A stretch of 21,941 nt of DNA from a virus. The stretch is from positions 1 through 21,941 of the IMG/VR virus record IMGVR_UViG_3300002835_001238; one strand, given 5' to 3'. The notes below the pieces were generated by a model that was not told where the DNA came from, did not search any database, and worked only from the letters and a program-made list of their open reading frames with translations. Shown here piece after piece: positions 1,013-18,392 of this stretch. A program made the position numbers and the translations under genes. Position 1 is the stretch's first letter, and each line of letters starts with the position of its first letter.

Positions 1013-1671
1013 TGAAAATAAAAGAACTATTTGAGAATGAATTACCGATGACGACACAAGGCAGAGTTAGTAGTGGAACATATGTTGTAGACCTTTCTCT
1101 TGAAAATCTTCCATCAGAAAATCTTAGACAAAGGATAGTCAAAAACATCAAGTTTGTCTATCCTCAAGCTGAAGTTCATATTGATAAAGAAGCTATTTTG
1201 ACTAAAATACCAAAGATTGTGGCATCTTATATTCATGAACTACCGGATATACATGATGACATTATTCAAACAGTTGAAGAAACAGTTAATGATTTTAATA
1301 ATAAAGATGAAGATCCTATTGCTCATGGTCAATCAGAATTAGTTTTCGATGGTGTTCCATCATTCAAAGTTATTACTGAAAGAGTAACTATCAATTGTCA
1401 AGAAAATTCCATTGGTCTTACCGGGTTAGACAAGCTCATAGGACCAGAAGTTCAAGAACTATTCATTAACGATATTCAAAAGCTGAAAGGTCATATCTTG
1501 TCATTATGCAAAATACCTATGAGCGTTGATATGTATCTCTATTCAAGATCGTCTGGAGATTTACATCATAAGATTGACGAAATGCTGATAAAGCATCGTC
1601 CTACACAGGATGTCATTGGTTTTCAACGTGAACTTATCGAAAAGGATTTAGACGAATATGCAGAGTTTTAA
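1012..1671 (+). CDS. Array paralog 3, tagged putative internal head protein, non-LRR subgroup
   Basis: 219 residues from the ATG that shares one A with the upstream TAA. An in-frame ATG at 961 would add 17 residues that merely re-read the previous gene's tag in another frame, so it is rejected. The family leader MKIKELFE starts exactly at 1012, and GGAG sits 6 nt upstream. The core has no obvious LRR lines. It has the pattern of the 10131/10787/13995 group: a VVDLSLENL strand, a central PSF(K)V segment and a GLTGLDKLI block, followed by HILSLCKI. The tag is FQRELIEKDLDEYAEF, with Phe for the usual Cys as in paralog 1. The leader fits L-x-E (LFE). Function unknown. Confidence 0.93.
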   Translation: MKIKELFENELPMTTQGRVSSGTYVVDLSLENLPSENLRQRIVKNIKFVYPQAEVHIDKEAILTKIPKIVASYIHELPDIHDDIIQTVEETVNDFNNKDEDPIAHGQSELVFDGVPSFKVITERVTINCQENSIGLTGLDKLIGPEVQELFINDIQKLKGHILSLCKIPMSVDMYLYSRSSGDLHHKIDEMLIKHRPTQDVIGFQRELIEKDLDEYAEF

Positions 1672-2407
1672 AACATATCTAGCAGAAGCATCTGCCAAAA
1701 ACCTTGCTCCATGGCAAGACCCGTCTAATCCAGCATATGTTAATGTCAATGTAAGTGATTACTTTAGAGGAAGTGTAAAGAGGAATAAGAATGGTACTTA
1801 TTCAACTTCTGCGCCTCATGGATATTTTATTTCGTGTCTAAAGTTAGATAATGGTAAGCAATACGTACTACCTGTCAAGTTTTCAATTATGAGTTACTTT
1901 GAAACTATTTCCGGTGTTGAAAATGGTCTTACTACTCTTCAAGGTTGTCCTGATACAATAAGACATGAAATGGTTATTGACTCAAAGAACTTAACCACCT
2001 TAGATTATCTTTATACTCAAGTACATTGGAAGCTCAGCATTCAATGTCCTAATCTCAAAACATTTGGAGATGCAAAAACAAAATGTCTTGACTTAGTTCT
2101 ATATGACATTGGTGATGTTCCTCTCAAAGAGGTTCAATATCACGTTGAAGTAATTCATACTATCTATCTTGGATTTGATGCTGCCTATAAAAAACCTGTC
2201 TTATCAATATTCAAAATCAAAGGACATTGGGTTTCAATAGAACAAAGAACCAGTTTTGACCAATGGAAGTCAGACCCAGATGGTTCTAAAGCTAAAGAAT
2301 TTGATTTAGTATGCAAAATACTAAGCAAGTATGCTAAATCTCGAAACGCCATTGCGTGCCAACGCGAACTAATTGAAAATGACTTGGATGAATACGCAGA
2401 GTTCTAA
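1658..2407 (+). CDS. Array paralog 4, last of first block, APW subgroup
   Basis: 249 residues. The leader MQSFKTYLAE is followed by Ala, which makes YLAE|A an excellent match to the T4 prohead-protease site FIAE|A. The core is a sister of the 275 gene (NLAPWQDP) with LRR-like lines GLTTLQGCPD, NLTTLDY and NLKTFGD, then PVLSIFKIKG and the tag CQRELIENDLDEYAEF. The gene overlaps the preceding one by 14 nt. It closes the first array block: the tag-stop region reads TTC TAA with no start codon after it. The stop interlocks with the stop of a convergent minus-strand gene (4-nt overlap), so there is no room for a terminator between them. Confidence 0.93.
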   Translation: MQSFKTYLAEASAKNLAPWQDPSNPAYVNVNVSDYFRGSVKRNKNGTYSTSAPHGYFISCLKLDNGKQYVLPVKFSIMSYFETISGVENGLTTLQGCPDTIRHEMVIDSKNLTTLDYLYTQVHWKLSIQCPNLKTFGDAKTKCLDLVLYDIGDVPLKEVQYHVEVIHTIYLGFDAAYKKPVLSIFKIKGHWVSIEQRTSFDQWKSDPDGSKAKEFDLVCKILSKYAKSRNAIACQRELIENDLDEYAEF

Positions 2408-5063: not shown

Positions 5064-5639
5064 ATGGCTCAAGGTCGTTTTATTCCGCGCAATCCTCAAA
5101 AGTATTTTGGAAATGCTGCTCAAATCTTCTTTCGTTCTTCATGGGAACTAACTGTCATGAAGTTCTTTGATAGTTCTATAAGTGTTACTAGATGGAATAG
5201 TGAAGAAGTTGCAATACCTTACATTTCTCCAAAAGATGGACGAGTCCATCGGTATTATCCTGACTTTATGTTTGAGATGATAAATACAAATCAAGAAGTT
5301 GAAAGATGGATAGTTGAAGTAAAACCGTTGAAAGAAGCAAGTGCTGAACATGCTAAGTCAGCTTATGATAGAGTTGCACTTATGGTCAATGAAGCGAAGT
5401 GGATTGCCGCTGAAAGGTTTTGCCAGGTCAATGGAATGAAATTCAAGGTCATCACTGAAGTTGATATCTATCGAATGATGCCACGAACTGCAAAGAAGAA
5501 AGCACCAAAAGTCAAAAAGCTAGCTGCCAATGGAACTAAGAAACCTGTAGCACCAAGAAAACCGAAAACTGCAAGTAAGACATCTATAACAAGAGCGCCA
5601 ACAAATGATAAAAGAAAATCTAAAAAAACATCCGCTTGA
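5064..5639 (+). CDS. 4: Head completion nuclease, T4 gp4-like
   Basis: 191 residues. The T4 gp4 pattern is clear: an N-terminal basic G-R-F-I-P-R-N-P-x-K-Y, then FFRSSWE (E28), VAIPYISPKDGRVHRYYPDF (D67) and WIVEVKP (E85-x-K87). Together these give the E...D...E-x-K metal site of TnsA/restriction-like nucleases. gp4-type proteins act on the packaged DNA end and complete the head before tail joining. T4 gp4 is about 150 residues; this protein adds about 45 C-terminal residues rich in Lys, Pro, Ala and Thr (from about 143), which could bind DNA. It begins 4 nt after the tube-initiator gene, with only a weak purine-rich site, and overlaps terS by 35 nt. Confidence 0.82.
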   Translation: MAQGRFIPRNPQKYFGNAAQIFFRSSWELTVMKFFDSSISVTRWNSEEVAIPYISPKDGRVHRYYPDFMFEMINTNQEVERWIVEVKPLKEASAEHAKSAYDRVALMVNEAKWIAAERFCQVNGMKFKVITEVDIYRMMPRTAKKKAPKVKKLAANGTKKPVAPRKPKTASKTSITRAPTNDKRKSKKTSA

Positions 5640-6078
5640 AGATATCTTCAACATTGAACCAGGTTCAACTTATGATATGACTACAAGTTCATCATCTTCA
5701 TATGAAGATGATATGATTGCTGTTCCTCAACAAACGGTTGCCCAATCATATCAAGATGATGCAGAAGATATTGATATCAACAATAAGATTGAGAGTATTT
5801 TTGAAGCTGCTATGGATGCTTATGAAAACCAAACAGCACTTACTGAAATAGTAGAACCTCGATATGCTGCAAGGAATGCAGAAGTGGCGGCACAGTACCT
5901 CAATACTGCGTTGAATGCAACGGCTCTTAAAGCAAGAACTAAAAATGACAAAAGAAAGACTGCTCCATTTATTCCATTTGGAAATAATACAAATATTTCT
6001 GGGAACAACATCGTTGTCGCGGATAGAAATCAGATATTAGAAATGTTACGTAACAAAAACAAGGATTCGTTAGACTAA
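5605..6078 (+). CDS. 16: Terminase small subunit, T4 gp16-like
   Basis: 157 residues (T4 gp16 has 164). The N-terminal LEDIFNIEP and an acidic linker (YQDDAEDIDINNKIESIFEAAMDA) lead into the helical middle (YAARNAEVAAQYLNTALNATALKART) and a C-terminal NNIVVADRNQILEMLR. This corresponds to the 'VFVGST...LxxxL' terminus common in T4-type small terminases, the helical middle being the ring-forming part. The subunit recognises DNA and stimulates the large terminase. Its start lies inside gp4 (35-nt overlap) with only a weak ribosome site. Its TAA stop shares an A with the ATG of the first gene of the large array, coupling terS to that array. The large terminase, adjacent in T4, is 9.98 kb further on. 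Confidence 0.75.
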   Translation: MIKENLKKHPLEDIFNIEPGSTYDMTTSSSSSYEDDMIAVPQQTVAQSYQDDAEDIDINNKIESIFEAAMDAYENQTALTEIVEPRYAARNAEVAAQYLNTALNATALKARTKNDKRKTAPFIPFGNNTNISGNNIVVADRNQILEMLRNKNKDSLD

Positions 6079-6755
6079 TGAAAATAAAAGAATTATTTGA
6101 AACATCAAGTACTCAACAAATGACTAATCCAGAAGTCCGTGAGTTAATTCAATACTGGGTTGATAAGGGTTGGCTAAAGGAAGGTTTTAACAATGGTGAT
6201 TCTATACATGGTTTCCAAGTAGCTTCTGATGGTTCTGCTGAACGTAAACTTGATAAGCTAGAAATAGTGAATGAAATGCTAACTCCTGAAGGAACCTTTC
6301 CGTTCAAGTTATCTCGTGCTAAGTATGTCGCAGTTAGAGCAAATAATCTTTCTTCGTTCAAAAACTTTCCTGAACAAATTGAACATCGAATTTCTGGCAA
6401 TCTTTTGTGTCTTGACATGTTAGCACCTAGCTTCCCTCATCTTACATCTTTAGAAGGATGTCCAAAATACTGTAGAGGTCACGCGAGATTATCACGAGCA
6501 AAAAATCTATCATATGCTAACGTTCATAAACATATCTTAGCTGCAGATGTGATTTCTATAAATGAAGAATATGTTGGCCCAATGTTAGGATTTCTAAAGA
6601 TAGTCAATCTTAAAGAAATTAGACACTTATATTCAGAAAATGGAAAATTAGCTGAAGCAGCAGAGATTATCAATGAGTATCTACCAAAAGGAGATTCTGT
6701 TGCATGCCAACGAAAACTAATTGAAAATGATTTAGACGAGTACGCGGAGTTTTAA
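6078..6755 (+). CDS. Array paralog 5 (first of second block), LRR-like tagged putative internal head protein
   Basis: 225 residues. The leader MKIKELFE (L-F-E) is followed by a helical segment. Three LRR-like lines follow: SFKNFPEQI (93-101), TSLEGCPKYCRG (123-134) and NLSYANVHKHI (143-153). Then come the family block PMLGFLKIVNLKEI (168-181) and the tag CQRKLIENDLDEYAEF (210-225). The core is closest to the 8828 gene, which has the same linker (STQQM.. / SNQQM..) and TPEGTxPFKxxRAK, and to 15311. The ATG overlaps the stop of terS by 1 nt; AAGGA lies about 12 nt upstream. No enzymatic motif is visible. The packaged-protein role is inferred from the leader. Confidence 0.93.
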   Translation: MKIKELFETSSTQQMTNPEVRELIQYWVDKGWLKEGFNNGDSIHGFQVASDGSAERKLDKLEIVNEMLTPEGTFPFKLSRAKYVAVRANNLSSFKNFPEQIEHRISGNLLCLDMLAPSFPHLTSLEGCPKYCRGHARLSRAKNLSYANVHKHILAADVISINEEYVGPMLGFLKIVNLKEIRHLYSENGKLAEAAEIINEYLPKGDSVACQRKLIENDLDEYAEF

Positions 6756-7426
6756 TGAAAATTAAAGAACTATTATCAGAAGATACTGTCAAAGAATGCA
6801 CATTAGAATGCGTTTATTATTTTCCATTTACAGTTAACGGTTATGATAAACTTTCTAAAACATTGATTAGAAAAGCTGTATATAATCTTTTAAAAGGATT
6901 TAAATACTCAATAGAGAATGTTAGCGAACACTCATTCAATATCAAAATAAAAAGTCCTGATAGTAATTTGCTAAAATCAAAAGCAAATCAATTCAAGTTT
7001 CATGATAAAGTAATGGAAGCTGTTTGTGATGCTATTGGTGAAAATTATATTGACGTTATCAATAATCAGTTATTTCAAGTATTTTGTAATATCTATAGTA
7101 ACTATATCCCAACTTTTCCGGTTGAATGTGAGTTCTTTAAATTGACAATAACTCCAGATATCAAATTTACTGGAATACATAAAGTATTAGATTGTTTCCA
7201 ATTACAATTAAATGACTTTCATAATTTCAAAGGTGGGGGCTTATTAAGTTTATTGAAACTTAACCCGTCAACTACAGTAAGACTTAGTATAAACGGAAAA
7301 ATGTACCCGGAATTAGCTAGTGCTTGGAACATTATTCAAACATATTTATCATCAAAAAATCGTGATCTCGTTGCATGTCAACGAAAACTAATTGAAAAGG
7401 ATTTAGACGAGTACGCAGAACTATGA
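6755..7426 (+). CDS. Array paralog 6, CYYF subgroup
   Basis: 223 residues. The leader MKIKELLSE|D fits L-x-E. The core is not LRR-like: it begins LECVYYFPF and contains KGFKYSIENVS, SPDSNLLKSK and KVMEAVCDAIG. These are all mirrored in the 14650 gene (LECCYYFPG, KGFKFSLQDVS, DPDSNWLKSE, KIMEAVCSEY), so the two share a distinct core although their leaders differ. The family block GLLSLLKLN and the tag CQRKLIEKDLDEYAEL close the protein. A GGAG site lies 6 nt from its ATG. Its last codons overlap the next start as ATGA. Fold and function are unknown. Confidence 0.93.
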   Translation: MKIKELLSEDTVKECTLECVYYFPFTVNGYDKLSKTLIRKAVYNLLKGFKYSIENVSEHSFNIKIKSPDSNLLKSKANQFKFHDKVMEAVCDAIGENYIDVINNQLFQVFCNIYSNYIPTFPVECEFFKLTITPDIKFTGIHKVLDCFQLQLNDFHNFKGGGLLSLLKLNPSTTVRLSINGKMYPELASAWNIIQTYLSSKNRDLVACQRKLIEKDLDEYAEL

Positions 7427-8139
7427 AAATACGAGAACTACTTCAAGAAGCACCTAAAGTTTCAGAAGAAACAAAACGAGTTAGAGCCATTATTAAACAA
7501 TGGCGAGAAGAAATAAAAGCTAATCCGCAATTTTCAGAATCTGCTTTTGGTCACTTCGAGCTAACCCCAGATAATCATCTTATTCATAAAGGACGAGCAT
7601 TAGTAATTCGAAACTACATGTTAGATGAAAATGGAGAATTACCAATCAAAATCCATAGTTGTTATAAGTTATCAGTTGGAACTCCAAAAATTAAGTCATT
7701 CAAAAACTTTCCTAATGAAATACTTAGAGATTATAGAAATAAAGTAGGATTTGGAAGATTTGATTGGTCACTTAACTTTGGAGGGGTTTATTCAAATGAT
7801 GAACGATATGATCATATCACTTCGTTAGAAGGAATTACTCCAGAAGTTCAGGGTGGTATTGATATGAGCATGCTAGAAAAAGTGAATTTTTCTAATGTTG
7901 ATAAGTATATCAAAAGTTGTTCTGTTGTTGCTATTGACCGTGATTATGTTGGCCCATTACTAAGTTTTCTGAAAATACCAAACTTGCAAAAAATTAATGG
8001 TCCAACATTACAAAATGCTACAACTAATAAAGAAAAAGCTTGTGCTATTGTTACTGAACATTTAAAAGGTAAAAGAAACATCATTGAGTGCCAACGAGAA
8101 CTAATTGAAAAGGATTTAGACGAGTACGCAGAACTATGA
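7423..8139 (+). CDS. Array paralog 7, LRR-like
   Basis: 238 residues. The leader MKIRELLQE|A fits the cleavage consensus. The core has the W-x-x-E/K-I helix found in several relatives (IIKQWREEI), then FGHFELTPDN and an 'ENGELPIK' turn. LRR-like lines are SFKNFPNEI, TSLEGITPEVQGG and NFSNVDKYI, followed by VGPLLSFLKIPNLQKI and the tag CQRELIEKDLDEYAEL. It is closest to the 8136 gene. The start is an ATGA overlap with no Shine-Dalgarno sequence nearby, so reinitiation after the upstream gene is expected. The 3' end forms the same kind of junction. Confidence 0.93.
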   Translation: MKIRELLQEAPKVSEETKRVRAIIKQWREEIKANPQFSESAFGHFELTPDNHLIHKGRALVIRNYMLDENGELPIKIHSCYKLSVGTPKIKSFKNFPNEILRDYRNKVGFGRFDWSLNFGGVYSNDERYDHITSLEGITPEVQGGIDMSMLEKVNFSNVDKYIKSCSVVAIDRDYVGPLLSFLKIPNLQKINGPTLQNATTNKEKACAIVTEHLKGKRNIIECQRELIEKDLDEYAEL

Positions 8140-8828
8140 AAATTGGAGAGTTGTTAAATGAAGCAGTAAAGAAGCATCCGGAAGAATTTGCTATCATGGC
8201 TAAGATACATAAATGGCGAACCAAAATTGCTTCTGAAAAAGCTGCAACATATTCTTCATGGTATCCACCATTCGGAAAATATAAAATAGTTCCATATAAA
8301 GGTGGAGGTTATGGTGTAGAGCATTTGAGCGAAAATCTAAAACTTTATGAATGGATGTTTGAGAACGGAGAGCTTCCATTCAAGTTTATATCATGTATTT
8401 CACTTGATGTTTATGGTGTTAATGCAATGACAACGTTTAAAAACTTTCCAGATAAAGTTCTTAATAATAGTAATGGCACAATGCTGAACATATTCGGAGT
8501 TAATAGCACAATGAAAGGGCCTAATATTCATTCATTAGAAGGTGTGCCTCGACATATTAATGGTTCCGCAGATTTTTCTCATTTTCCGAAACTATCTTTT
8601 GCAAATGTTCATAAACATATCGATTATGTTGAAGGTGTTAAATTTCCATATCCGTATAAAGGTCCTATTCTTGGATTTCTAAAGATAAATGGATTGAGTT
8701 CAGTTACAGACCATGGTGATAAGTGGCAACAGATACTAAATAAACATTTAGCAAGTTCTAAACGAGATGCCATTGCATGTCAACGCGAATTGATTGAAAA
8801 AGATTTAGACGAGTACGCGGAGTTTTAA
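8136..8828 (+). CDS. Array paralog 8, LRR-like
   Basis: 230 residues. The leader MKIGELLNE|A is followed by KIHKWRTKI, a Gly/Tyr-rich segment (FGKYKIVPYKGGGYG) and ENGELPFKFISC. LRR-like lines are TFKNFPDKV, HSLEGVPRHINGSADF and SFANVHKHI, then GPILGFLKINGLSSV and the tag CQRELIEKDLDEYAEF. It is the nearest relative of the 7423 gene. It starts by an ATGA overlap without a Shine-Dalgarno sequence and ends in the 1-nt TAATG overlap, where the Ala-Glu codons GCG GAG supply a GGAG site for the next gene. Function unknown. Confidence 0.93.
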   Translation: MKIGELLNEAVKKHPEEFAIMAKIHKWRTKIASEKAATYSSWYPPFGKYKIVPYKGGGYGVEHLSENLKLYEWMFENGELPFKFISCISLDVYGVNAMTTFKNFPDKVLNNSNGTMLNIFGVNSTMKGPNIHSLEGVPRHINGSADFSHFPKLSFANVHKHIDYVEGVKFPYPYKGPILGFLKINGLSSVTDHGDKWQQILNKHLASSKRDAIACQRELIEKDLDEYAEF

Positions 8829-9493
8829 TGAAAATACAAGAACTATTTGAACAAACATCTAGTAATCAACAAATGTCTAAGGATGAAGTACTTGCTATTA
8901 TTGATGAATGGCGAAGTTGGCAAACTTTTCCGCATGATTACTATGACAAATTTGTAGTCGCTAAAGATGGAACAGTTTCATGCAATATGCCAAAATTTCA
9001 AATTACGGAAAGAATGCTAACGCCAGAAGGAACTCTTCCATTCAAGATTACCCGAGCTAAATGTATTCACGTTTATACGTCTGCACTTTCTTCATTCAAA
9101 AACTTTCCAGAGTATATTGAAACTCCTAAAAGCTCAAAGATTGATGCTCTAAAATTAGAGGGAGTAAATTTCCCTAAGCTTACTTCTTTAGAAAGTATTC
9201 CAAAGTATTCCAAAGGAGTATTGAATTTATGGGAAGCTCAAAATTTATCATTCGCTAATGTTCATAACCATATCTTAGAAGCTGATAAGATTTATATTTC
9301 TGGGAATAAGCCAAGTCCGATATTAGGATTTTTGAAAATCAAAAACCTTAAAACTGTTTGGATATCAAGTGAAAGTATTGACGATTTCGAAAGAGCAATT
9401 GATATTCTCAATGAATTCTTACCTAATGGCAACACCATTGCGTGCCAACGAAAACTAATTGAAAATGACTTAGACGAGTATGCGGAGTTTTAA
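8828..9493 (+). CDS. Array paralog 9, LRR-like
   Basis: 221 residues. The leader MKIQELFE|Q is followed by a helix IIDEWRSW. The TPEGTLPFKITRAK segment is nearly the same as in the 6078 gene, its closest relative. LRR-like lines are SFKNFPEYI, TSLESIPKYSKG and NLSFANVHNHI; the family's HKHI is HNHI here. The block SPILGFLKIKNLKTV and the tag CQRKLIENDLDEYAEF follow. It is bounded on both sides by 1-nt TAATG overlaps, each with GGAG just upstream of the ATG. No catalytic motif is seen. Confidence 0.93.
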   Translation: MKIQELFEQTSSNQQMSKDEVLAIIDEWRSWQTFPHDYYDKFVVAKDGTVSCNMPKFQITERMLTPEGTLPFKITRAKCIHVYTSALSSFKNFPEYIETPKSSKIDALKLEGVNFPKLTSLESIPKYSKGVLNLWEAQNLSFANVHNHILEADKIYISGNKPSPILGFLKIKNLKTVWISSESIDDFERAIDILNEFLPNGNTIACQRKLIENDLDEYAEF

Positions 9494-10134
9494 TGAAAAT
9501 AAAAGAATTGTTTGAACAGGAAGAAGAACAAATACCATATAAAGTAGCAGAGCAATTGAGAATGCTTACTCAAGGTACTATCAATCTAAATAAAATGGGC
9601 ATATTATATGCTAATTCTAAATTAGACTTATCGCAATCTGATACGGCATTTGGAGCTTTCGCTGATAAAGTTGAAAATGGATATGAACTAAAATATAAAC
9701 TTGACGTAGTATTAGGTGATTTTGATATTGAAGATAGACAAATAGTTTCATTCAAAAACTTTCCAAACTCGGTTCATGGTGCTGTAAATTGTTATAAAAA
9801 TAATATTACTTCACTTGAAGGTGCTCCTTATAATATAAGTGGTTCTTTAGATTTGATTGATAATCCTATCACTTCATTCAAAGATATTCATAAACATATT
9901 CAGAGTTGCAGTAAGATTTATGTTCCTGTATCAGTTCAATCAAACTTATTAGGTGTATTGAAGATGAAAAATATTCCTTTACTTTCTACTGCTTCAACTG
10001 ATAGATGGAAAGAAGGTTATAATACTTTATTAAAAGCTATATCTATCATAAATAGTTATCAAACAGCCAATGATTGGATTGCATGTCAACGAAAACTAAT
10101 TGAAAACGACCTGGACGAGTACGCAGAATTATGA
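9493..10134 (+). CDS. Array paralog 10, compact LRR-like
   Basis: 213 residues. The leader MKIKELFE|Q is followed by a very acidic EQEEEQ. This is one of the clearest LRR-like cores. Three successive lines with about 21-residue period are SFKNFPNSVHGAVNCYKNN (86-104), ITSLEGAPYNISGSLDLIDN (105-124) and ITSFKDIHKHIQSCSKIYV (126-144). NLLGVLKMKNI and the tag CQRKLIENDLDEYAEL follow. The repeat form 'L-x-G-x-P-x-x-v-x-G-x-l-x-c-x-x-N' is one I know from uncharacterised proteins of large phages. The gene starts from a TAATG overlap with GGAG and ends in an ATGA-type overlap. Confidence 0.93.
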   Translation: MKIKELFEQEEEQIPYKVAEQLRMLTQGTINLNKMGILYANSKLDLSQSDTAFGAFADKVENGYELKYKLDVVLGDFDIEDRQIVSFKNFPNSVHGAVNCYKNNITSLEGAPYNISGSLDLIDNPITSFKDIHKHIQSCSKIYVPVSVQSNLLGVLKMKNIPLLSTASTDRWKEGYNTLLKAISIINSYQTANDWIACQRKLIENDLDEYAEL

Positions 10135-10787
10135 AAATATCAGAATTATTAAATGAAGCAACAAGTAATAGAACCGATACTTTTGAAATAAAGTTATCGT
10201 TTGAAACACATTTTGCACCAAAAGTAATTGCTATTCGAGATGCTTTGATTAAAGCTAATCTTACTGGCGTAAAAGTTAAACTTGTCGATAAACCATCATC
10301 AAGTAACCAAGTACGAATAACTTTGAACGGAAAACTTCCATTCAACAAAACTAATATTGAACATCAATTAGAAAGAGTTCGCGAAGTAGTCGAAAGCTTT
10401 AACAAAATCGATAAAAGCCCTTATAACGAAGGTTCATCATTTCCTATTGTCTTTATTGACAATATGCCAAATAGCCCAATTGAATGGCCGGTTATCTATT
10501 TGAACTCAAATAGTAATACAGCTCTTTCATTAGCAGGTGTTGATAAACTTATTAAAGCAGATGAATTATTTAGAATTGAATATGCTAATATGATTAGCGA
10601 TAGTGTTGTAGGGTTATTGAAAATCAAAGGCAAACTCATTCTAAATAATGCAGATTGGGGTAATAAGTTTAAAACTGTTGAATGGGTTAAAATTATTACT
10701 AGTTATAGAAAATCAGAAAATCAAGATATAGTTGCATGTCAACGTGAAATGATTGAACAAGACTTAGACGAATACGCGGAATTTTAA
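10131..10787 (+). CDS. Array paralog 11, non-LRR subgroup
   Basis: 218 residues. The leader MKISELLNE|A is identical at nine residues to that of the 11419 gene. The core belongs with 1012, 10787 and 13995: FEIKLSFETHF, then two basic/alternating stretches that look like beta strands, NMPNSPIEWPVIYLN, and LSLAGVDKLIK in place of the HKHI block. GLLKIKGKLIL and a slightly aberrant tag, CQREMIEQDLDEYAEF (Met and Gln at usual Leu and Lys), follow. The start is an ATGA-type overlap without a Shine-Dalgarno sequence. At the 3' junction the Ala-Glu codons are GCG GAA, the only 1-nt junction lacking a full GGAG. Confidence 0.93.
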   Translation: MKISELLNEATSNRTDTFEIKLSFETHFAPKVIAIRDALIKANLTGVKVKLVDKPSSSNQVRITLNGKLPFNKTNIEHQLERVREVVESFNKIDKSPYNEGSSFPIVFIDNMPNSPIEWPVIYLNSNSNTALSLAGVDKLIKADELFRIEYANMISDSVVGLLKIKGKLILNNADWGNKFKTVEWVKIITSYRKSENQDIVACQREMIEQDLDEYAEF

Positions 10788-11422
10788 TGAAAATAAAAGA
10801 ACTATTTGAAACCTCAGTTAGAAAAGATTATTTTATAGACTTATGGCTGTCGTATAATGCTCTAACTACTACTTTAACAAAACTCAATGAAAATCCTAAA
10901 AAGATAACTGATGCTATTGACAAAAAAACCGGATTGAGTTCAATTATTCAAGTTGGTAAAGGTACATTTGATATTAGCCTTGAAGTTCCAGAACATCAGG
11001 TGAATGATTTTGCGAATTACATAGATGATGTCAATGCTGTTCTTAAAGCGTTTTTTGATATCACTGAAATTCGTGAAGATTCAGGGTCGCATATAGTTCA
11101 TTTAACATTTGACAAACAGGTTCCTTCATTACCAATACCAATTGAGTTTCCGAATATCTTTATTCAGAACCTTAATAAAACTTCATTATCTGGTATTCAT
11201 AAAATAATAAAAGATTTTAGTTATTTAGAAATCAATAATTCTGAGAATATTACAGGTGGTGTTTTGGGTTTGATAAAGTTAGCAAAACATGGAGTAATAA
11301 AAATCAATACTCCAAATCCTGAATGGGCTAACATTGTTTTAAAATATTTAAACTCGGGTGATGTCATTGCATGTCAACGAAAACTAATTGAAAAGGATTT
11401 AGACGAGTACGCAGAACTATGA
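10787..11422 (+). CDS. Array paralog 12, non-LRR subgroup
   Basis: 211 residues, the shortest complete member. The leader is MKIKELFE|T. The core is a clear sister of the 13995 gene: LWLSYNALTTTLTKLN against LTLEFSGLTDLCKKMK, TGLSSIIQV against TGTDSIILV, and FDKQVPSLPIPIEF against FSHEVPKLSIPISY. SLSGIHKIIKDF also matches SLSGIDKIISSF. The block GVLGLIKLAKHG and the tag CQRKLIEKDLDEYAEL follow. The alternating hydrophobic pattern suggests a small mixed alpha/beta domain, but I do not recognise the fold. It ends in an ATGA overlap. Confidence 0.93.
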   Translation: MKIKELFETSVRKDYFIDLWLSYNALTTTLTKLNENPKKITDAIDKKTGLSSIIQVGKGTFDISLEVPEHQVNDFANYIDDVNAVLKAFFDITEIREDSGSHIVHLTFDKQVPSLPIPIEFPNIFIQNLNKTSLSGIHKIIKDFSYLEINNSENITGGVLGLIKLAKHGVIKINTPNPEWANIVLKYLNSGDVIACQRKLIEKDLDEYAEL

Positions 11423-12345
11423 AAATATCAGAATTGTTAAATGAAGCATCTAAAGGTGCAGACTATTCAGCGGTCATTGACCAATTAGAACAAACTCCAG
11501 AGTTTAAGGACTTCTCGAAGTACTTTGACTTGAACTCCACGAAAATACAAAGAAAGAATGGTTCTTTGCAAATAGTGACTAAAGATACCTATCTAAAAGA
11601 ACCACGAGAATACTTTGTCAATTATGCAGGTGATATCAAAGTCAAAAATTCTTACGCCTCTATTTGGGGTAAAGCGGGTTATGGTGCGGGTCCAGACGGT
11701 TCATTACAAATGTATCTGAACTGTTTAGATACAATACATACCCATTTTGTGAATTGGTTTGCAAAACGTCTAAAGAATGCTAAAGATGATGTGCGTAATC
11801 TTAGTCTTACTACGCTAAAAGGCAGAATTTATCCAAATAAGATTTCAAACTTCAATTGTTCTTACAATAATCTTACAACCTTAGAAGGAGCACCTGAACT
11901 TAATGCGGCGGGGGATTTCTCAGTAGGTGGGGATTTCTATTGTAACAACAATGAACTGACTTCGCCTTTAGTTGGTGGTCCTGAACAATGTAGATTGTTT
12001 AATGCTGCTAATAATAAGCTAACATCTTTTGAAGGATTTCCAAAGCATGCTCAGTTTATTCAAGCGTATGGTAATCCAATCACTTCATTCTCTGACGTTC
12101 ATAAGCATATTCCGAGGTGTCAAGGATTTACTTTACCGCCAGTCAAAACTGGGGTCTTAGCATTTTTCAAAGTAAAAGATTGTACTTCAATTGCATTTAC
12201 TATAAATGGTAGAAAAACAGAAGATGGAGAATTTGGTTTAGTTGCTCAAATTGTTTCTAAGCATTTATTCTCTAGTGAACGAAGTGCTATCAAATGTCAA
12301 CGTGAACTAATTGAAAACGACTTGGATGATTATGCAGAGTTTTAG
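11419..12345 (+). CDS. Array paralog 13, long LRR-like
   Basis: 308 residues. The leader MKISELLNE|A precedes an extra about 130-residue N-terminal domain. That domain resembles the one in the 13057 gene (EFKDFSKYFDLNSTKIQRKNGSL against EYKEILSKTFDISSAIKLKNGTL). Five LRR-like lines follow: FNCSYNNLTTLEGAPE, FYCNNNELTSPLVGGPEQ, FNAANNKLTSFEGFPK, AYGNPITSFSDVHKHI and an initial NLSLTTLKG. Then come GVLAFFKVKDC and the tag CQRELIENDLDDYAEF. It has the most regular repeats in the family. The 3' end is TAG rather than TAA or TGA and overlaps the next gene by 14 nt. Confidence 0.93.
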   Translation: MKISELLNEASKGADYSAVIDQLEQTPEFKDFSKYFDLNSTKIQRKNGSLQIVTKDTYLKEPREYFVNYAGDIKVKNSYASIWGKAGYGAGPDGSLQMYLNCLDTIHTHFVNWFAKRLKNAKDDVRNLSLTTLKGRIYPNKISNFNCSYNNLTTLEGAPELNAAGDFSVGGDFYCNNNELTSPLVGGPEQCRLFNAANNKLTSFEGFPKHAQFIQAYGNPITSFSDVHKHIPRCQGFTLPPVKTGVLAFFKVKDCTSIAFTINGRKTEDGEFGLVAQIVSKHLFSSERSAIKCQRELIENDLDDYAEF

Positions 12346-13057
12346 ACAATACTTATTAAAAGAACAGGCTAACAACGATTTCGACTTTTGGCCGGAAGAA
12401 GATATTATCGACTGGATTACTAGAAATGGTCATCGAGTTCTAAAGAAGTATAACATTGAAGATTTAGACCCTGGCAACTTTGAAAATGCAAAGTATGATT
12501 ATGGTATTGTAAATGCTACGGCTGTGTTATTATCTGGTGATGAAGAATGTTTGCCACGTATTAATGGTTCAACTCATCTTCGTTATTTGCCATGTCAGTT
12601 TGGACAAATAGAAAGGAACTTCTTTATAGCAAATTGTAGTTTAGGTTCTTTGAAAGGATGTCCTAAAATCGTGGGTGGTCGTTTTAGCATTAGCAACAAT
12701 CCAGAAATCACATCACTTGATTATTTTCCTGAAAGAGCTTCTTCATATATACTTCGTGGAACTGGTATTACTTCTTTGAGTGGCATTCACAAAGTCATCA
12801 AAGAAATAAGACCTAATAGACAAGGTGATGGTGAAATTGTCGTTCCGCATACTTTGACTAATTCTATATTAGGCTTGCTAAAGATACCAGGATTGAGAAC
12901 TATTTCATATCCAGCAACTGAAAGAGCTAAATACTCTAATGAACTTCGCCAAGCAATTGGAATAGTCTATAACCATTTACAAACAGACGAAAAAAATGCT
13001 ATTGCCTGCCAACGAGAACTAATTGAAAATAATCTAGACGATTACGCGGAGTTTTAA
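12332..13057 (+). CDS. Array paralog 14, LRR-like
   Basis: 241 residues from ATG 12332, where MQSFRQYLLKE begins. An in-frame ATG at 12311 would add 7 residues that only re-read the previous tag, and is rejected. The leader ends L-K-E. The core is acidic at first (FWPEEDIIDWITRNG), then has LRR-like lines SLGSLKGCPKIVGGRFSISN, PEITSLDYFPERAS and GITSLSGIHKVIKEI. NSILGLLKIPGLRTI and a variant tag CQRELIENNLDDYAEF follow. The 14-nt overlap with the upstream gene places the start inside that gene's tag; GGA lies 6 nt before the ATG. The 3' end is a TAATG junction with GGAG. Confidence 0.92.
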   Translation: MQSFRQYLLKEQANNDFDFWPEEDIIDWITRNGHRVLKKYNIEDLDPGNFENAKYDYGIVNATAVLLSGDEECLPRINGSTHLRYLPCQFGQIERNFFIANCSLGSLKGCPKIVGGRFSISNNPEITSLDYFPERASSYILRGTGITSLSGIHKVIKEIRPNRQGDGEIVVPHTLTNSILGLLKIPGLRTISYPATERAKYSNELRQAIGIVYNHLQTDEKNAIACQRELIENNLDDYAEF

Positions 13058-13995
13058 TGAAACTAAATGAACTATTTCCATTACTAAAAGAAGCCGGTGT
13101 TTCGATACCTGCTGTTAAAGATTTGCCGCCTATTGACCCGGTTGATTTAGCTGATACTCTAAATAAAGTCAAACAATCAAACGAATATAAAGAAATACTT
13201 TCAAAAACATTTGATATCAGTTCTGCTATAAAACTAAAAAACGGAACTTTAACATTCAAGTTGAAAAATGGAACTATGGATTATTCGATTTATTCTAATG
13301 GACAGATAAGAGCTCAGGCAGCACATGCTGATAGAGCCACTAAGATGAATTCGCCTATTCCCGTTCCTAATCTATATGTTCGTTATATCAACTGTTTAAA
13401 AAAGCTGAAAGACATAGCTGAAAAAAAATTAGCTAAGAAAGAAGAAAATAAAACAATTATATTATCTGGAGAAATGGGCCCTGACTTAACTCAAATTGAA
13501 TTCCCAAAAGATACAATTTATCTCAATGTTCTTAAATCTTCAATTCGTTCCCTAAAAGGTTGTCCGCCAACAATTGAACATTTGATGATAAGTGACAATG
13601 AAAATCTAATATCTTTAGAAGGTTGTCCATCTAAATTAACAAATTTAGCTATATGGGATAATAAAAACTTATCATCATTAGAACATATTGCTTCTGATAT
13701 TGATGGTAATCTACAAATTTATCGTAATGCAAAAATTACTTCTTTTGACAATTTAGATAAGTTAGTAAAAAGAATAGGCATCATGTTACAATTTGACCCA
13801 ACTATTAAAAGTGGTGTTCTTTCTATTTTGAAAATTAAAGGATTAGAACAAGGTGTTCGACAAACAAAACCACCACAAGAAGTTGATCTTATCTTAGGTA
13901 AAATTCTAACTAAACATATATTTGCAGGGCGCAACAGGATTGCGTGCCAACGTGATCTAATTGAAAACGACCTAGACGAGTACGCGGAGTTTTAA
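13057..13995 (+). CDS. Array paralog 15, longest, LRR-like
   Basis: 312 residues. The leader is atypical: MKLNELFPLLKE|A, 12 residues with the L-K-E site displaced; ELF is followed by Pro rather than Glu. An about 150-residue N-terminal domain is shared with the 11419 gene and includes a Lys-rich helix around 110-130. LRR-like lines follow: SIRSLKGCPPTIEHLMIS, NLISLEGCPSKLTNLAIW, NLSSLEHIASDIDGNLQIY and ITSFDNLDKLVKRIG. After GVLSILKIKGLEQG the tag is CQRDLIENDLDEYAEF, the only copy with Asp at that position. TAATG junctions lie at both ends. Confidence 0.93.
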   Translation: MKLNELFPLLKEAGVSIPAVKDLPPIDPVDLADTLNKVKQSNEYKEILSKTFDISSAIKLKNGTLTFKLKNGTMDYSIYSNGQIRAQAAHADRATKMNSPIPVPNLYVRYINCLKKLKDIAEKKLAKKEENKTIILSGEMGPDLTQIEFPKDTIYLNVLKSSIRSLKGCPPTIEHLMISDNENLISLEGCPSKLTNLAIWDNKNLSSLEHIASDIDGNLQIYRNAKITSFDNLDKLVKRIGIMLQFDPTIKSGVLSILKIKGLEQGVRQTKPPQEVDLILGKILTKHIFAGRNRIACQRDLIENDLDEYAEF

Positions 13996-14663
13996 TGAAA
14001 GTAAAAGAACTATTTGAACACGAAGCTATTCCAAAGTTAAAACAAAATCATATGATAGAGCTTACATTAGAATTTAGCGGATTGACTGACTTATGTAAGA
14101 AGATGAAAGCAAATTTGCAACAGTTCAAAAAACTTATCAATGAAAAGACTGGAACTGATAGTATTATATTAGTTAGTACTATTTCATTTTCTATTAAATT
14201 ATTGATTGAAGATAAAAATGTTGATGCTTTTGATAATTATCGTGAAAATGTTTTAGACGTATTGAATGAATTTGCAGGTGATTCTTCTAACTATCGAGAA
14301 AATCATGAAGACCACCATGTTAATCTATTCTTTTCACATGAGGTTCCTAAACTTTCAATTCCAATTTCATATGATACTGTTTATGTAAATGTAGAAAATA
14401 AATCTTCATTATCCGGAATTGATAAAATTATATCTTCTTTTAGAAACTTATATATTCGTAATTGTGAAAACGTTACCGGAAAGGCATTAGGCATTATTAG
14501 GTTAGCTAAGAAAGGTAAAGCAATCAACTTATCAACATCAGATTATCATGAATTGCATTGGATGTATGTTATCAATAAGCATTTGAATCCTGAACGTCAA
14601 AATGTTGTAGCTTGTCAACGAGAACTAATTGAACGTGATTTAGACGAATATGCAGAATTTTAA
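13995..14663 (+). CDS. Array paralog 16, non-LRR subgroup
   Basis: 222 residues. The leader is MKVKELFE|H. The core is a sister of the 10787 gene, colinear over its length: MIELTLEFSGL, then a helix with many Lys, FSIKLLIEDKNVDAFDNY, VNLFFSHEVPKLSIP, SLSGIDKII and ENVTGKALGIIRLAKKG. The tag is CQRELIERDLDEYAEF. Sisters 10787 and 13995 are separated by three LRR-type genes, so they are not a simple neighbouring duplication. The gene starts from a TAATG overlap with GGAG and ends in a 14-nt overlap. Confidence 0.93.
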   Translation: MKVKELFEHEAIPKLKQNHMIELTLEFSGLTDLCKKMKANLQQFKKLINEKTGTDSIILVSTISFSIKLLIEDKNVDAFDNYRENVLDVLNEFAGDSSNYRENHEDHHVNLFFSHEVPKLSIPISYDTVYVNVENKSSLSGIDKIISSFRNLYIRNCENVTGKALGIIRLAKKGKAINLSTSDYHELHWMYVINKHLNPERQNVVACQRELIERDLDEYAEF

Positions 14664-15324
14664 ACAATACTTGCAAGAAGGTGAAACTCAGAATTCAGTT
14701 TATCTTGAATGTTGTTATTACTTTCCAGGAAATCCTATAACAGACATAACTTCAGCAAAAGTTCGTGGTATAGTCTCACCAGTGTTGAAAGGCTTTAAGT
14801 TTTCACTTCAAGATGTAAGCACTGAAGGTTTTGTTGTAGTTATTATAGACCCTGATAGTAATTGGTTGAAATCTGAAAAAGCTCAGTTTGATTTGCATGG
14901 TAAGATTATGGAAGCAGTTTGCTCTGAGTATAAAATGAACTTTGCGCATGTCATTAATCATCATAAGTTTTCGGCTAATTGTAATATAGGATTGAATAGA
15001 TTACTTCCATTTCAAGTAGTTTGTCATTTATTGTCTATCAATGTTCAAGTTGATACAGTTTTTACAAATATCAAAAAGCTAGTAAAATGTGATGCGATTC
15101 ACATTTATCAAATGGAGTATTTTAATGGAGGGTTATTAGGATTATTACAAATACCTCATCCAACTCAAGTTTGGTTTTCTTCTAATAGTATTAGATTAGC
15201 AAAATACGATAAATTAAATGAGGCCATTCGAATTGTCAGAACACATTTAGATGGTGATAGAAATGTTGTAGCTTGTCAACGAGAACTAATTGAAAAGGAT
15301 TTAGATGAATATGCAGAGCTTTAA
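14650..15324 (+). CDS. Array paralog 17, CYYF subgroup
   Basis: 224 residues. The leader MQNFKQYLQE|G is joined to a core related to the 6755 gene (LECCYYFPG, KGFKFSLQDVS, PDSNWLKSE, KIMEAVCSEY, FSANCNIG). That relative carries an MKIKELLSE leader, so leader and core do not co-vary. The block GLLGLLQIPHPTQVW and the tag CQRELIEKDLDEYAEL follow. The last 14 nt double as the start of the next gene (LDEYAEL against MQSF). No recognised enzymatic motif. Confidence 0.93.
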   Translation: MQNFKQYLQEGETQNSVYLECCYYFPGNPITDITSAKVRGIVSPVLKGFKFSLQDVSTEGFVVVIIDPDSNWLKSEKAQFDLHGKIMEAVCSEYKMNFAHVINHHKFSANCNIGLNRLLPFQVVCHLLSINVQVDTVFTNIKKLVKCDAIHIYQMEYFNGGLLGLLQIPHPTQVWFSSNSIRLAKYDKLNEAIRIVRTHLDGDRNVVACQRELIEKDLDEYAEL

Positions 15325-16012
15325 ACAATACTTACAAGAAGACACGGCTTCAAATAGCGAATACGTTCAACGTATTCGAGACCTATTAAATGATTGGGCA
15401 AGTCAAGAACTTATACCGAATGACCCAAAGAAAAACTCTTTGCACGGTTTCAAAATATCTGCATCTGGGATAGTTGATTGTCAGTTAGGAACTCTTATAA
15501 TTTATGATGAAATGTTAGATGCTAATGGTGAATTCCCATTCAAAATCCGAAATGCAAAATATATGATTTTGGAGCGTTTAGAAAAATTAAAATCATTCAA
15601 AAACTTTCCTGAAAAATTAGTATGTAAATCAGATTATAGGGATGTTTTTATAACATATCATCTTTTTAAGTATCGTAAAATTACATCTTTTGAGAATTTT
15701 CCAAAATATTGTCCTAATGGAGAAATACAACTAGAGGCATTTGTAAATGCTTCTTTTTCAAATATTCATAAACATATTTTGGATGCAGAAACAATAAGAA
15801 TAAATCCTAATTATGTTGGACCTATTTTATCATTTTTAAAGATTCCAACTTTAACAGATGTATATGCATTTACGGGGGATGTAAATGACGAAAGTGAATC
15901 ATGTAAAGAAGCTCTTAGTATTCTAAATAAACATTTAAATGGTAATAGAGACTTTATTGCATGTCAACGAGAACTAATTGAAAAGGATTTAGATGAATAT
16001 GCTGAATTATAA
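15311..16012 (+). CDS. Array paralog 18 (last of second block), LRR-like
   Basis: 233 residues from ATG 15311. A further ATG at 15305 would add Met-Asn only; the 14-nt overlap seen at the other junctions of this type and the MQSFKQYLQE leader favour 15311. The core resembles the 6078 and 8828 genes: HGFKISASG, DANGEFPFKIRNAK, SFKNFPEKL, TSFENFPKYCPNG, SFSNIHKHI and YVGPILSFLKIPTL. Those relatives carry MKI-type leaders. The tag CQRELIEKDLDEYAEL is followed by TAA with no start codon in the junction position. The Ala-Glu codons are GCT GAA, without a GGAG site, as expected for an array end. Confidence 0.92.
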   Translation: MQSFKQYLQEDTASNSEYVQRIRDLLNDWASQELIPNDPKKNSLHGFKISASGIVDCQLGTLIIYDEMLDANGEFPFKIRNAKYMILERLEKLKSFKNFPEKLVCKSDYRDVFITYHLFKYRKITSFENFPKYCPNGEIQLEAFVNASFSNIHKHILDAETIRINPNYVGPILSFLKIPTLTDVYAFTGDVNDESESCKEALSILNKHLNGNRDFIACQRELIEKDLDEYAEL

Positions 16013-16057: not shown

Positions 16058-17617
16058 ATGGCAAATCCTTATCTAAAGCGAGCGAATACAGAAACTGAAT
16101 ACGAAGCTTGGCAAATCCAAGAACTTGAGAAGTGTATGAATGACCCGATATACTTCATCAAAAACTATGTCAAAATTCAGCATGCTATTAAAGGTACGGT
16201 TCTATTTGAGCTGTTTGACTATCAAGAAGAATTCATTCTAGCAATTCACAATAACAAAGATACGTTAGCACTAATGTCTCGCCAGCTTGGTAAGACAACT
16301 ACTGCGGCAATCTACATCTTTTGGCTTTCTGCTTTTACTGATGACCAAGCATGTGTGATAGCATCTAAGAACATGGACCATGCTACAGACATCATGGCCA
16401 AAATCAAATTTGCATATGAAGAGCTTCCAAATTGGTTGAAGCCTGGAGTCAAGTTCTACAATCGTACATCAATCGAATTTGACAATGGTTCAATCATCAA
16501 ATCACAAGCAACTACAGAAAAAACTGGTCGTGGTAATTCACCATCAATTCTAATGCTTGACGAGATTAGCTTTATTTCAACTCGTATCCAAGAAAAGATT
16601 TGGGCTTCAATTGCTCCGGCTCTTTCAACTGGTGGTAAGTTGATTATGACAACTACTCCTAATGGTGATACTGACTTGTTTGCTAGATTGTGGAGAGAAT
16701 GTCTTGCAGGTCTAAACAGCTTTAGTCATACTTTTGCTCATTATACTCAACATCCTGAACGTGGTCCTGAATCTGGTTATCGAGAAGAAATGCTTGCAAA
16801 ACTAGGGGAACTTGTTGTACGAGTAGAACTTGATTGCGAATTCCTTTCTTCTGATGCTCTTCTTATCCAATCACAACGTCTTATCGAACTTAGACATCAA
16901 CAACCAATCTTTATTGACAAGGGCTTTTCTTTCTGGGAAAACATTCGTGCTGATGCTGCTTATCTTGTAGGTGTTGATATTGCAACGGGTTCGGGTCGAG
17001 ATTACAGTGTTGTTGAAGTGTTTGAGTTTCCATCACTTATTCAAGTTGCTGAGCTTCGAACTAATAGTCTAAACATACCTGACTTATATGATAGAATAAA
17101 GTGGTTACTAAACAAAATGTCAAGTCATACTATGAATAACAAACGACCTGAAGTATTCTGGACATTTGAACGAAATGGAGTTGGTGAAGCTATTGGTGCT
17201 CTTTATAATACCGATGAACATCCACCTGAGTATGCCGAACTTATCAATGATGTGCCTGGCAAGTTAGGAATGCAAACAACAAATCGTAACAAAATCCTCG
17301 CTTGTCTTCAACTAAAGTCTATGGTTGAAAAGATAAAGAACGGATTGGAGATAAGGTCTGAAATCAATATCTTTGAACTTAAGAACTTTATTGCTTCAGG
17401 TGGTTCTTATGCCGCTAAGATTGGAGCTACTGATGACAGTGTGTCTGCATTATTACTTATTATTAGATTGCTAAAGCATGTAAGTGAGTTTGATGACAAA
17501 GCTAGAAAGTTGTTATATGAATATAATGCCGAAGATTATAACCCAGCGGTAAATAGCTTTGGACCTGACACTCCATTAGATGAAAGTGATGAAGCAATAC
17601 CTTTTATGGTGCTTTGA
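16058..17617 (+). CDS. 17: Terminase large subunit, T4 gp17-like
   Basis: 519 residues (T4 gp17 has 610; the difference is mostly at the N-terminus). This is the DNA-packaging motor and headful nuclease acting at the portal. ATPase: Walker A SRQLGKTT (74-81), Walker B ILMLDE (164-169), coupling motif TTT (198-200). C-terminal RNase H-type nuclease: D307 in VGVDIATGSGRDYS, E371 in FWTFERNGVGEA, and D459/D460 in GATDDSVSALLL. All key residues are present, so it should be active. It follows the last array gene after 45 bases holding a late promoter and a hairpin, rather than overlapping terS as in T4. The transcript probably ends in the downstream non-coding region. Confidence 0.95.
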   Translation: MANPYLKRANTETEYEAWQIQELEKCMNDPIYFIKNYVKIQHAIKGTVLFELFDYQEEFILAIHNNKDTLALMSRQLGKTTTAAIYIFWLSAFTDDQACVIASKNMDHATDIMAKIKFAYEELPNWLKPGVKFYNRTSIEFDNGSIIKSQATTEKTGRGNSPSILMLDEISFISTRIQEKIWASIAPALSTGGKLIMTTTPNGDTDLFARLWRECLAGLNSFSHTFAHYTQHPERGPESGYREEMLAKLGELVVRVELDCEFLSSDALLIQSQRLIELRHQQPIFIDKGFSFWENIRADAAYLVGVDIATGSGRDYSVVEVFEFPSLIQVAELRTNSLNIPDLYDRIKWLLNKMSSHTMNNKRPEVFWTFERNGVGEAIGALYNTDEHPPEYAELINDVPGKLGMQTTNRNKILACLQLKSMVEKIKNGLEIRSEINIFELKNFIASGGSYAAKIGATDDSVSALLLIIRLLKHVSEFDDKARKLLYEYNAEDYNPAVNSFGPDTPLDESDEAIPFMVL

Positions 17618-17975: not shown

Positions 17976-18392
17976 ATGAAACTTATCGACATCAAACCAC
18001 ATGTTATCAGTGAGTCAAGCACTCCTATACATATGACTATGCTTCTTGACGAAGTAAGAAACGCAGGCAAAATCACTAACACTGCACAAACTGTTCTGAT
18101 TGCACAACTTGTTCAATTGTTCAAGTTTTCACCAGTCAATCCGCAGAATGATATTCTTCAGTTCCAACAATCTCATAGTGCAATGAAACCTCGTTATGTC
18201 TATGAGAATCCAACTCCTAAGGAATTACTTGATGATATCAAAGGTCTGAAAGATGATGAACAAGTCAAGTTAGCAGAATGGCTATTACGTCAACTTGCAA
18301 TCGTTGAGGCAAATGAAGATTTGGAACTTTATCATAATCCTGAAATGGCATTGAATAAATGGATAAGCCTTGTAACGAAGGCTCAACATTAA
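17976..18392 (+). CDS. Hypothetical protein with a possible capsid-targeting-like N-terminus
   Basis: 138 residues, soluble and mostly helical; no recognised domain. The N-terminus MKLIDIKPHVISE|S ends in I-S-E at residue 13, which would fit the same prohead-protease consensus as the array leaders, but it otherwise differs and the family tag is absent. The middle contains KELLDDIKGLKDDEQVKLAEWLLRQL, an amphipathic helix pair, and the C-terminus MALNKWISLV. A purine-rich site (AAAGAGAGAGAGAA, 17955-17968) precedes the ATG. It lies between terL and a tail-fibre-like gene, so a virion role is plausible but not shown. Confidence 0.75.
   Translation: MKLIDIKPHVISESSTPIHMTMLLDEVRNAGKITNTAQTVLIAQLVQLFKFSPVNPQNDILQFQQSHSAMKPRYVYENPTPKELLDDIKGLKDDEQVKLAEWLLRQLAIVEANEDLELYHNPEMALNKWISLVTKAQH

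Follow-up and report, generated by a model that had tools for sequence, protein, structure and literature searches.

What do the products of a long run of related genes beside the packaging genes of a phage do? The question is raised by a 21,941-nt stretch of DNA, the IMG/VR record IMGVR_UViG_3300002835_001238, from a large phage known here from metagenome contigs alone. This whole stretch is called the window below, and coordinates refer to it unless another contig is named. Fourteen tandem paralogous open reading frames (ORFs) occupy positions 6078-16012, and four further ones, one of them truncated by the window edge, lie at 1-2407 (Table 1); the 18 members counted in an earlier note on this DNA are thus correct for the window. 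We think it quite likely that the array encodes a family of head-targeted, protease-processed cargo proteins with leucine-rich repeat (LRR)-like or ferredoxin-like bodies, which are probably ejected into the host.

A short leader on every complete paralog

The earlier note had described a short N-terminal leader ending in L-x-E on every complete paralog. In the form (L/I)-x-E, this site ends at residue 8-12 in all 17 complete paralogs of the window. All 17 thus have a site within the first 13 residues; when the whole proteins were shuffled 2000 times, on average 2.1 of 17 had one, and at most 7. In 12 of the 17 proteins the later Glu is followed by one of the four residues named in the earlier note, A (6), Q (3), D (2) or G (1); the others have T (2), K, N or H there. 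The leaders fall into two classes, 12 of MK type and five of MQ[SN]F[KR]xYL type. The MK leaders have lengths of 8 (6), 9 (5) or 12 (1) residues and are closer to the propeptide of T4 gp24. Because most MKIxE leaders carry an additional I-x-E at residue 5, the position of the cut is a prediction.

Within a set of 31 paralogs (29 from a 118,937-bp contig that belongs to this phage, two from locus L027; 465 pairs), the leader reaches a pairwise identity of 0.38, the body 0.23 and the final 20 residues 0.77; for 10-residue windows elsewhere in these proteins the value is 0.08-0.09.

The propeptides of T4-type internal proteins (IPs) are about 7-19 residues long and end in (L/I)-x-E; as a sequence feature, such a peptide of 8-12 residues is found in 17 of the 17 paralogs. 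The T4 capsid targeting sequence (CTS) has a register with hydrophobic residues at positions 4 and 7, an aliphatic residue at 8 and Glu at 10, where 'hydrophobic' is our generalization from IPIII mutant data (PMC9026906). The register is exact in four of the 17 window paralogs, those starting at 275, 1658, 14650 and 15311, and the paralog at 12332 has one residue inserted. The earlier note had given MKTYQEFIAE as the start of T4 IPI-III. In the T4 record this is true of IPII and IPIII, but IPI starts MKTFKEFTSTTTPVSTITE. For the MKISELLNE type, the start of T4 gp24 in the same record, MAKINELLRE, is the nearer match.

Protease, capsid protein and further members in the same phage

The full window matches parts of two IMG/VR contigs, of 118,937 bp (G004, the long contig) and 90,028 bp, at 100% identity; contig G005 overlaps the long contig over about 26 kb. 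Of the features for which the earlier note had proposed a search, a gp21-type protease and an L-x-E site in the major capsid protein are present. The long contig carries a Peptidase_S77 gene (PF03420, gp21-type) of 206 codons, found at 84.6 bits, and a Gp23-type capsid gene (PF07068, 323.3 bits) whose product has L-M-E at residue 39, followed by T, and no later L/I-x-E. By eye, a portal-like gene adjoins the protease gene and a gene for a charged, coiled, scaffold-like protein adjoins the capsid gene; the scaffold-like gene matches T4_CASP at E 0.055, under the cut-off of that profile. Three family members (106075-107896 of this contig) lie between the protease gene and the scaffold-like gene. 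In the T4 record, gene 22 comes immediately after gene 21.

Judged by the pattern of their C-terminal tails, the long contig holds 31 members, in arrays of 14 and 13, a head cluster of three and a lone ORF at 32064-32762. With checked starts, 28 of the 31 have the leader. Under a looser start rule it is found in 29 of 31 paralogs (29 from the long and two from the overlapping contig) and in 49 of 238 other genes, with a Fisher p of 9e-16 for paralogs that are related and therefore not independent. Two more tail-bearing genes lie at 66885-68422 of G005.

Three side observations belong to these contigs. A second S77 protease match, at 30 bits, lies at G005 74880-75221. Around the head cluster (L056 5352-8379, equal to G004 105352-108379), an IAGI motif near the N-terminus is common to small genes and one paralog, and the C-terminal end of the scaffold-like protein is FLKRIAGITS; from its distribution, IAGI may be a core contact motif. 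A 394-codon gene adjoining an array, at G004 29266-30450, starts MKIFELFSS and resembles, by eye, a family whose leaders in other phages (L255, L276) read MKIAELFE or MKISELFE.

The leader on unrelated proteins and in other phages

A scan for MK[ILVFM]xELFE, which required a following G base, returned at least 120 stretches. Among the matches listed, MKxxELFE stands at an ORF start in 102 of 116 distinct ones, compared with 5 of 37 for a permuted pattern, which had 59 stretches in the whole collection and many off-start matches that are copies of one protein family. The 133 non-redundant leader ORFs among the matches listed have unrelated bodies, including cytidylyltransferases and ART-PolyVal, deoxyribonucleotidase and amidoligase proteins; three of the 133 match phrog_21719. 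At locus L074, leaders of this kind occur on two LRR members and on a protein with kinase-type matches (E 0.002 and 0.013, below cut-off), and MKVHELFE is identical in the kinase-like protein and one of the LRR members.

Array members of other phages (L147, L157, L012, L165 and L281) lie beside genes that by eye resemble the tube-like, gp4-like, TerS-like or TerL genes of the window, and relative to the window their arrays have genes absent or added. L147 has no counterparts of the genes at 6078 and 6755 or of the five genes at 8828-12345, and the remaining order of the 6078-16012 block is kept to the end of that contig. The leader is present in 42 of 51 members on other contigs, compared with 16 of 116 further ORFs of 100 codons or more at the same loci, several of which look like cargo. 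In or near the arrays, leader-like N-termini are also found on non-paralogs, a RimK-type ATP-grasp protein (5e-22) and a phosphoribosyltransferase whose three copies score 8e-8 at best and include one below cut-off. The ORF at L034 7953-8651 and the lone ORF of the long contig are the same, so the members counted on the long contig and those counted on other contigs share at least one gene. A similar array was not seen among 35 genes read by eye in the terminase neighbourhoods of XacN1 and RAS14.

An ART-PolyVal ADP-ribosyltransferase at L259 8694-9341 (5e-18) starts with MKIKELFE followed by N and is a possible analogue of Alt. At L176 4511-7274, three tandem genes of 303-310 codons, with no Pfam match, have MKLHELFE or MKLFELFE leaders and an early LFRG, LWRG or LYRG stretch, which we take to be reminiscent of ADP-ribosyltransferases.

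Cyanophage virion proteins provide a comparison with mass spectrometry (MS) data. In CsCl-purified S-CREM2 virions, 52 proteins were detected by MS (PMC10665884). Our comparison covered 218 of the 219 genes, 51 of them MS-detected, and used a strict register rule derived from the T4 IPIII data and formulated after the leaders of Syn19 had been seen. Strict register matches were found in 4 of the 51 detected and 1 of the 167 undetected genes (Fisher p = 0.011). The four are the S-adenosylmethionine (SAM) hydrolase, a kinase, the cytidylyltransferase and the small ORF13, and the undetected match is a 55-residue ORF. The S-CREM2 virion protein annotated as Cas9 has RFASFMAE, followed by A, 17 residues downstream of its annotated start. 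A kinase has been reported in S-CRM01 virions (PMC10665884), and the annotated kinase gene in the S-CRM01 stretch that we read starts MISFDQFLSE, followed by K. The cytidylyltransferase family was detected in virions of S-SM1 (PMC3037559) and of S-CREM2 (PMC10665884). Its members start with M-K-x-F-x-x-F-L-x-E in S-CREM2, Syn19 (MKKFSAFLNE then A) and S-SM2 (MKSFFQFLSE then A), with a near match in S-CRM01. The authors of the S-CREM2 study caution that such proteins might be carry-over from purification (PMC10665884). Adjacent genes with CTS-like leaders surround the kinase gene in S-CRM01 (L363, g127-g131) and S-CREM2 (L359, gp12-gp15), including in S-CREM2 the Cas9-annotated protein.

A C-terminal tail specific to each phage

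The extreme C-terminus, to which the earlier note had paid no attention, is the most conserved feature of the paralogs in the alignment, above the leader. Over the last 19 residues identity is 0.75-0.82 within each of six phage sets and 0.41-0.64 between sets. The ORF of the long contig that ends at 24438 was excluded, and L157 and L012 were treated as one set because their tails are alike, although they may be two phages. In six matched pairs from the window and L147, the bodies are 0.42-0.63 and the tails 0.42-0.68 identical. Between phages, therefore, the tail changes no more slowly than the body, although inside a single phage it is much the more uniform of the two. Where tail residues are identical, synonymous codons agree at 0.61, compared with 0.54 expected from codon usage (n = 4070), and the tail protein is 79% identical. 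Since this codon agreement is scarcely above expectation, gene conversion as the sole cause of tail uniformity was rejected and mainly protein-level constraint is favoured.

Tails that are uniform within a phage and differ between phages are as expected if all tails bind one co-evolving partner, and we favour the reading that tail uniformity reflects protein-level co-evolution with one partner per phage, plus some exchange of DNA at the junctions. A tentative extension, to which we would give somewhat less than an even chance, is a two-part address in which the cleavable N-terminal leader would be joined by a phage-specific C-terminal tag that binds one co-evolving partner, for example the core, the portal or an ejection factor. 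On that view the array would amount to an interchangeable stock of injected LRR-type binders, one cassette for each host target.

T4 Alt is cleaved at both ends (PMC9026906). The tail of the present phage likewise has an apparent second gp21 site, L-I-E, but cleavage there was discarded as a general feature of the family, since relatives have L-I-D, L-I-T, E-L-M or L-Y-D instead; the L201 set retains L-I-E in most members. By tblastn against 50,697 phage records, the matches of three queries never extended to the C-terminal tail, and a distant family member had no match. A search of the open-licence literature by title and start of abstract brought up no account of this array, of its tail or of cyanophage virion enzymes with capsid targeting leaders.

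Diverse bodies

Structure models were examined for two paralogs, with a mean predicted local distance difference test score (pLDDT) of 89.8 for 8828-9493 and 89.9 for 10787-11422, falling to 50 and 43 in the first ten residues. The 50 VIA rows listed for the first model carry titles of LRR proteins, with Z no higher than 7.8. In the second model the front half is ferredoxin-like, as are most of the domains that VIA listed for it (Z no higher than 6.2). The alignment gives the two proteins a C-terminal part in common. For neither model did Foldseek find a match in the PDB at E 0.001, and the three BFVD matches at E 0.001 or better are all nameless.

Among six window paralogs scanned, no Pfam match above cut-off was found; LRR_4 gave E 0.7 for one of the six and 0.00066, below cut-off, for a relative. 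In PHROGs at E < 0.001, two of seven scanned paralogs match phrog_21719 alone (7.7e-6 and 1e-4), and an eighth had no match. The mature paralogs would have masses of 22.8-33.5 kDa, compared with 8.0-20.4 kDa for the T4 IPs.

A proposed route through the head, and its alternatives

On the reading that we prefer, paralogs made late in infection would bind the prohead core through their leader, and the gp21-type protease of the phage would cleave after L/I-x-E. The released bodies, of 23-34 kDa, would remain among the packaged DNA, be ejected with it upon infection and act in the host, where the varied bodies would bind different host or defence targets. The tail would probably dock every member to one partner of that phage, and the genes would come and go as cassettes joined by short overlaps.

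The interpretation given in the earlier note stands in part, and its idea of packaging is largely right. Head targeting with gp21-type processing is supported by the leader register, by the S77 protease and gp23 capsid protein of the same phage, by members between the protease and scaffold-like genes, by arrays beside similar structural genes elsewhere, by the leader on unrelated proteins and by a strict register that agrees with the S-CREM2 MS data. Comparison supports packaging of the paralogs in the head, and we infer cutting after L-x-E in this phage, ejection with the DNA and binding of host targets. That the proteins are delivered to the host and there counter defences or help in takeover is suggested by analogy with T4 IPI-III (PMC12373910) and by the leaders on ADP-ribosyltransferase, kinase-like, phosphoribosyltransferase and ATP-grasp proteins of other phages.

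Several results weigh against this reading. Three of the 31 members on the long contig fail the leader rule, namely the array ORF ending at 24438, the lone ORF and one head-cluster gene, which has F-T-E (MKINELFTE); so do 9 of the 51 members on other contigs, and one of the two additional tail-bearing genes of G005 has no leader. Two of the 133 listed leader ORFs are UvsY proteins that also start MKxxELFE, so the motif by itself is no proof of packaging. The bodies are not basic, with a mean isoelectric point (pI) of 6.6 and three of 17 above 8, compared with 9.0-9.7 for T4 IPI-III; small and basic, as T4-type internal head proteins are, the window paralogs are not. The fold matches are weak, both VIA scores lying in the range that the tool calls common, and profile and structure searches found no function for any paralog. 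A deficit of internal L/I-x-E sites reaches significance neither in the paralogs (31 vs 36.3, P = 0.19) nor in the capsid protein (0 vs 2.4, P = 0.075), and depletion was accordingly dropped as support. In S-CREM2, when genes shorter than 100 residues are set aside, the strict register is of borderline significance (3/48 vs 0/79, p = 0.052); the looser L/I-x-E rule does not predict detection (7/51 vs 12/167, p = 0.12) and was abandoned as a marker of virion proteins. In Bellamy, the cytidylyltransferase as annotated starts without a leader; an in-frame MKSLFQFLNE, followed by A, lies just upstream.

The paralogs could instead serve morphogenesis alone, as proteins of the prohead core that are cut by the protease and then removed or retained in the head, with no delivery of effectors. 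The members between the protease and scaffold-like genes would fit this, as would T4 mutant data from which IPIII seems to take part in assembling the head (PMC9026906). However, the bodies average 23% identity and the genes come and go between phages, unlike a conserved scaffold, and similar leaders occur on enzymes, including enzymes reported in virions (PMC10665884). We regard this alternative as rather unlikely.

Less probable again, and in our view improbable, is that the paralogs belong to the tail or baseplate region of the virion, or are late proteins of the cytoplasm, and that their leader is no more than a helix suiting overlapping gene starts. Single relatives adjoin baseplate, sheath or other tail genes by eye (L072, L073, L074 and L140), and the N-terminus of UvsY is similar. 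Furthermore, genes overlap at each of the 17 junctions, counting the one with the TerS-like gene: by 1 nt at eight, by 4 nt at four and by 14 nt at five. The five 14-nt overlaps are exactly the five MQ leaders, whose first residues are thereby fixed; in one example, ATGCAGAATTTTAA codes for both YAEF-stop and MQNF. The overlap accounts for the M-Q-N/S-F start but not for the L-x-E beyond it, which is kept in both leader classes, and the register matches enzymes reported in S-CREM2 virions.

Selfish expansion, in which duplicated cassettes would be maintained by recombination at conserved junctions with no common virion function, has very little to recommend it: DNA at several junctions is 88-93% similar over 81-106 bp, leader codons at identical residues agree more than codon usage predicts (0.72 vs 0.53, n = 711) and some DNA-level exchange at the leaders is likely, but tail codons lie nearer expectation and, with the conserved tail protein, point to selection on the protein, and the ORFs are intact and matched between phages.

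Comparison with known systems

Head-targeted cargo of this kind has its closest functional model, by analogy, in T4 Ip1-3, each of which inhibits a different GmrSD enzyme and which have only the leader in common (PMC12373910). The window paralogs share with T4 IPI-III a short N-terminal peptide, with the same register in the MQ types, a gp21-type protease in the phage and diverse bodies behind a common leader. They differ in number, with about 30 paralogs in contrast to three T4 proteins without homology beyond the leader, in their larger, non-basic, LRR-like or ferredoxin-like bodies and in a common C-terminal tail that is not seen at the T4 IP ends examined. Because of these differences in size, charge, number, fold and tail they are not filed as T4 IPs, although by analogy they most likely work like them. 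The gp24 propeptide is almost the same peptide as MKISELLNE, but gp24 is a capsid vertex protein and not internal cargo.

Paralog family B of SPN3US comprises 20 head proteins (gps 83, 138-154, 161 and 237; PMC5694885) and is alike by description only, as a large head paralog family with mainly consecutive gene numbers in a large phage (PMC5694885). The proteins reported as processed in SPN3US are others than family B and have an AxE motif and mostly long propeptides (PMC5694885). Virion enzymes of T4-like cyanophages (SAM hydrolase, APH kinase and cytidylyltransferase in S-CREM2 and S-SM1) share CTS-register leaders and detection in virions (PMC10665884; PMC3037559), but are single enzymes with no paralog array. 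The phrog_21719 family, phage proteins of no assigned function or location, is related through the profile match of two window paralogs.

What may be new here is an unusually large, cassette-like set of head-targeted paralogs with a possible second, phage-specific tag at the C-terminus. If the reading is correct, one particle would deliver about 30 different proteins into the cell at time zero, compared with three IPs in T4. Leader register, with the tail as a second mark, would give a sequence rule for candidate injected proteins of uncultivated phages, and there would be a possible reason for the kinases, cytidylyltransferases and SAM hydrolase in cyanophage virions. Leaders could double as packaging tags outside T4, and the phage-specific tail makes a testable claim of a common partner in head assembly or ejection.

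Genes of the window

Table 1. Family members and terminase-region genes of the window, with their leaders and the residue that follows each leader.
Feature	Coordinates	Strand	Leader	Next residue	Remarks
Paralog, 3' part only	1..288	+			complete copy with MQSFKEYLLE leader on longer contig
Paralog	275..1012	+	MQNFKSYLAE	K	best L147 match 66% identical
Paralog	1012..1671	+	MKIKELFE	N	start internal to longer ORF from 961
Paralog	1658..2407	+	MQSFKTYLAE	A	
Small-terminase-like flank gene (TerS-like)	5605..6078	+			phrog_445, E 5e-5; 1-nt overlap with array gene 1
Array gene 1	6078..6755	+	MKIKELFE	T	LRR-type by alignment
Array gene 2	6755..7426	+	MKIKELLSE	D	
Array gene 3	7423..8139	+	MKIRELLQE	A	LRR-type by alignment; best L147 match 67% identical
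Array gene 4	8136..8828	+	MKIGELLNE	A	LRR-type by alignment
Array gene 5	8828..9493	+	MKIQELFE	Q	structure model LRR-like
Array gene 6	9493..10134	+	MKIKELFE	Q	LRR-type by alignment
Array gene 7	10131..10787	+	MKISELLNE	A	
Array gene 8	10787..11422	+	MKIKELFE	T	front half ferredoxin-like in structure model
Array gene 9	11419..12345	+	MKISELLNE	A	phrog_21719
Array gene 10	12332..13057	+	MQSFRQYLLKE	Q	upstream TTG start at 12311 also open
Array gene 11	13057..13995	+	MKLNELFPLLKE	A	phrog_21719
Array gene 12	13995..14663	+	MKVKELFE	H	
Array gene 13	14650..15324	+	MQNFKQYLQE	G	
Array gene 14	15311..16012	+	MQSFKQYLQE	D	
Large terminase flank gene (TerL)	16058..17617	+			phrog_36964, E 3.5e-66
Possible further leader-bearing gene, non-paralog	17976..18392	+	MKLIDIKPHVISE	S	no Pfam match up to E 0.05

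Consecutive genes at 3056-3649 and 3791-5059 both match phrog_4542, a tail tube family; the second is extended by a long C-terminal region. On the minus strand, opposing the direction of the operon, a short ORF with CxxC-like pairs lies at 2620-2931. It may be the remnant of a mobile endonuclease; a similar-looking ORF is found at 6555-6866 of L147, in the corresponding gap. A sequence of about 290 bp at 17620-17904, 3' of the terminase gene, has three to four other full or partial copies in G004 and G005 at 87-97% identity. G005 diverges from G004 at a copy of this sequence, which may therefore cause assembly breaks or be a dispersed element.

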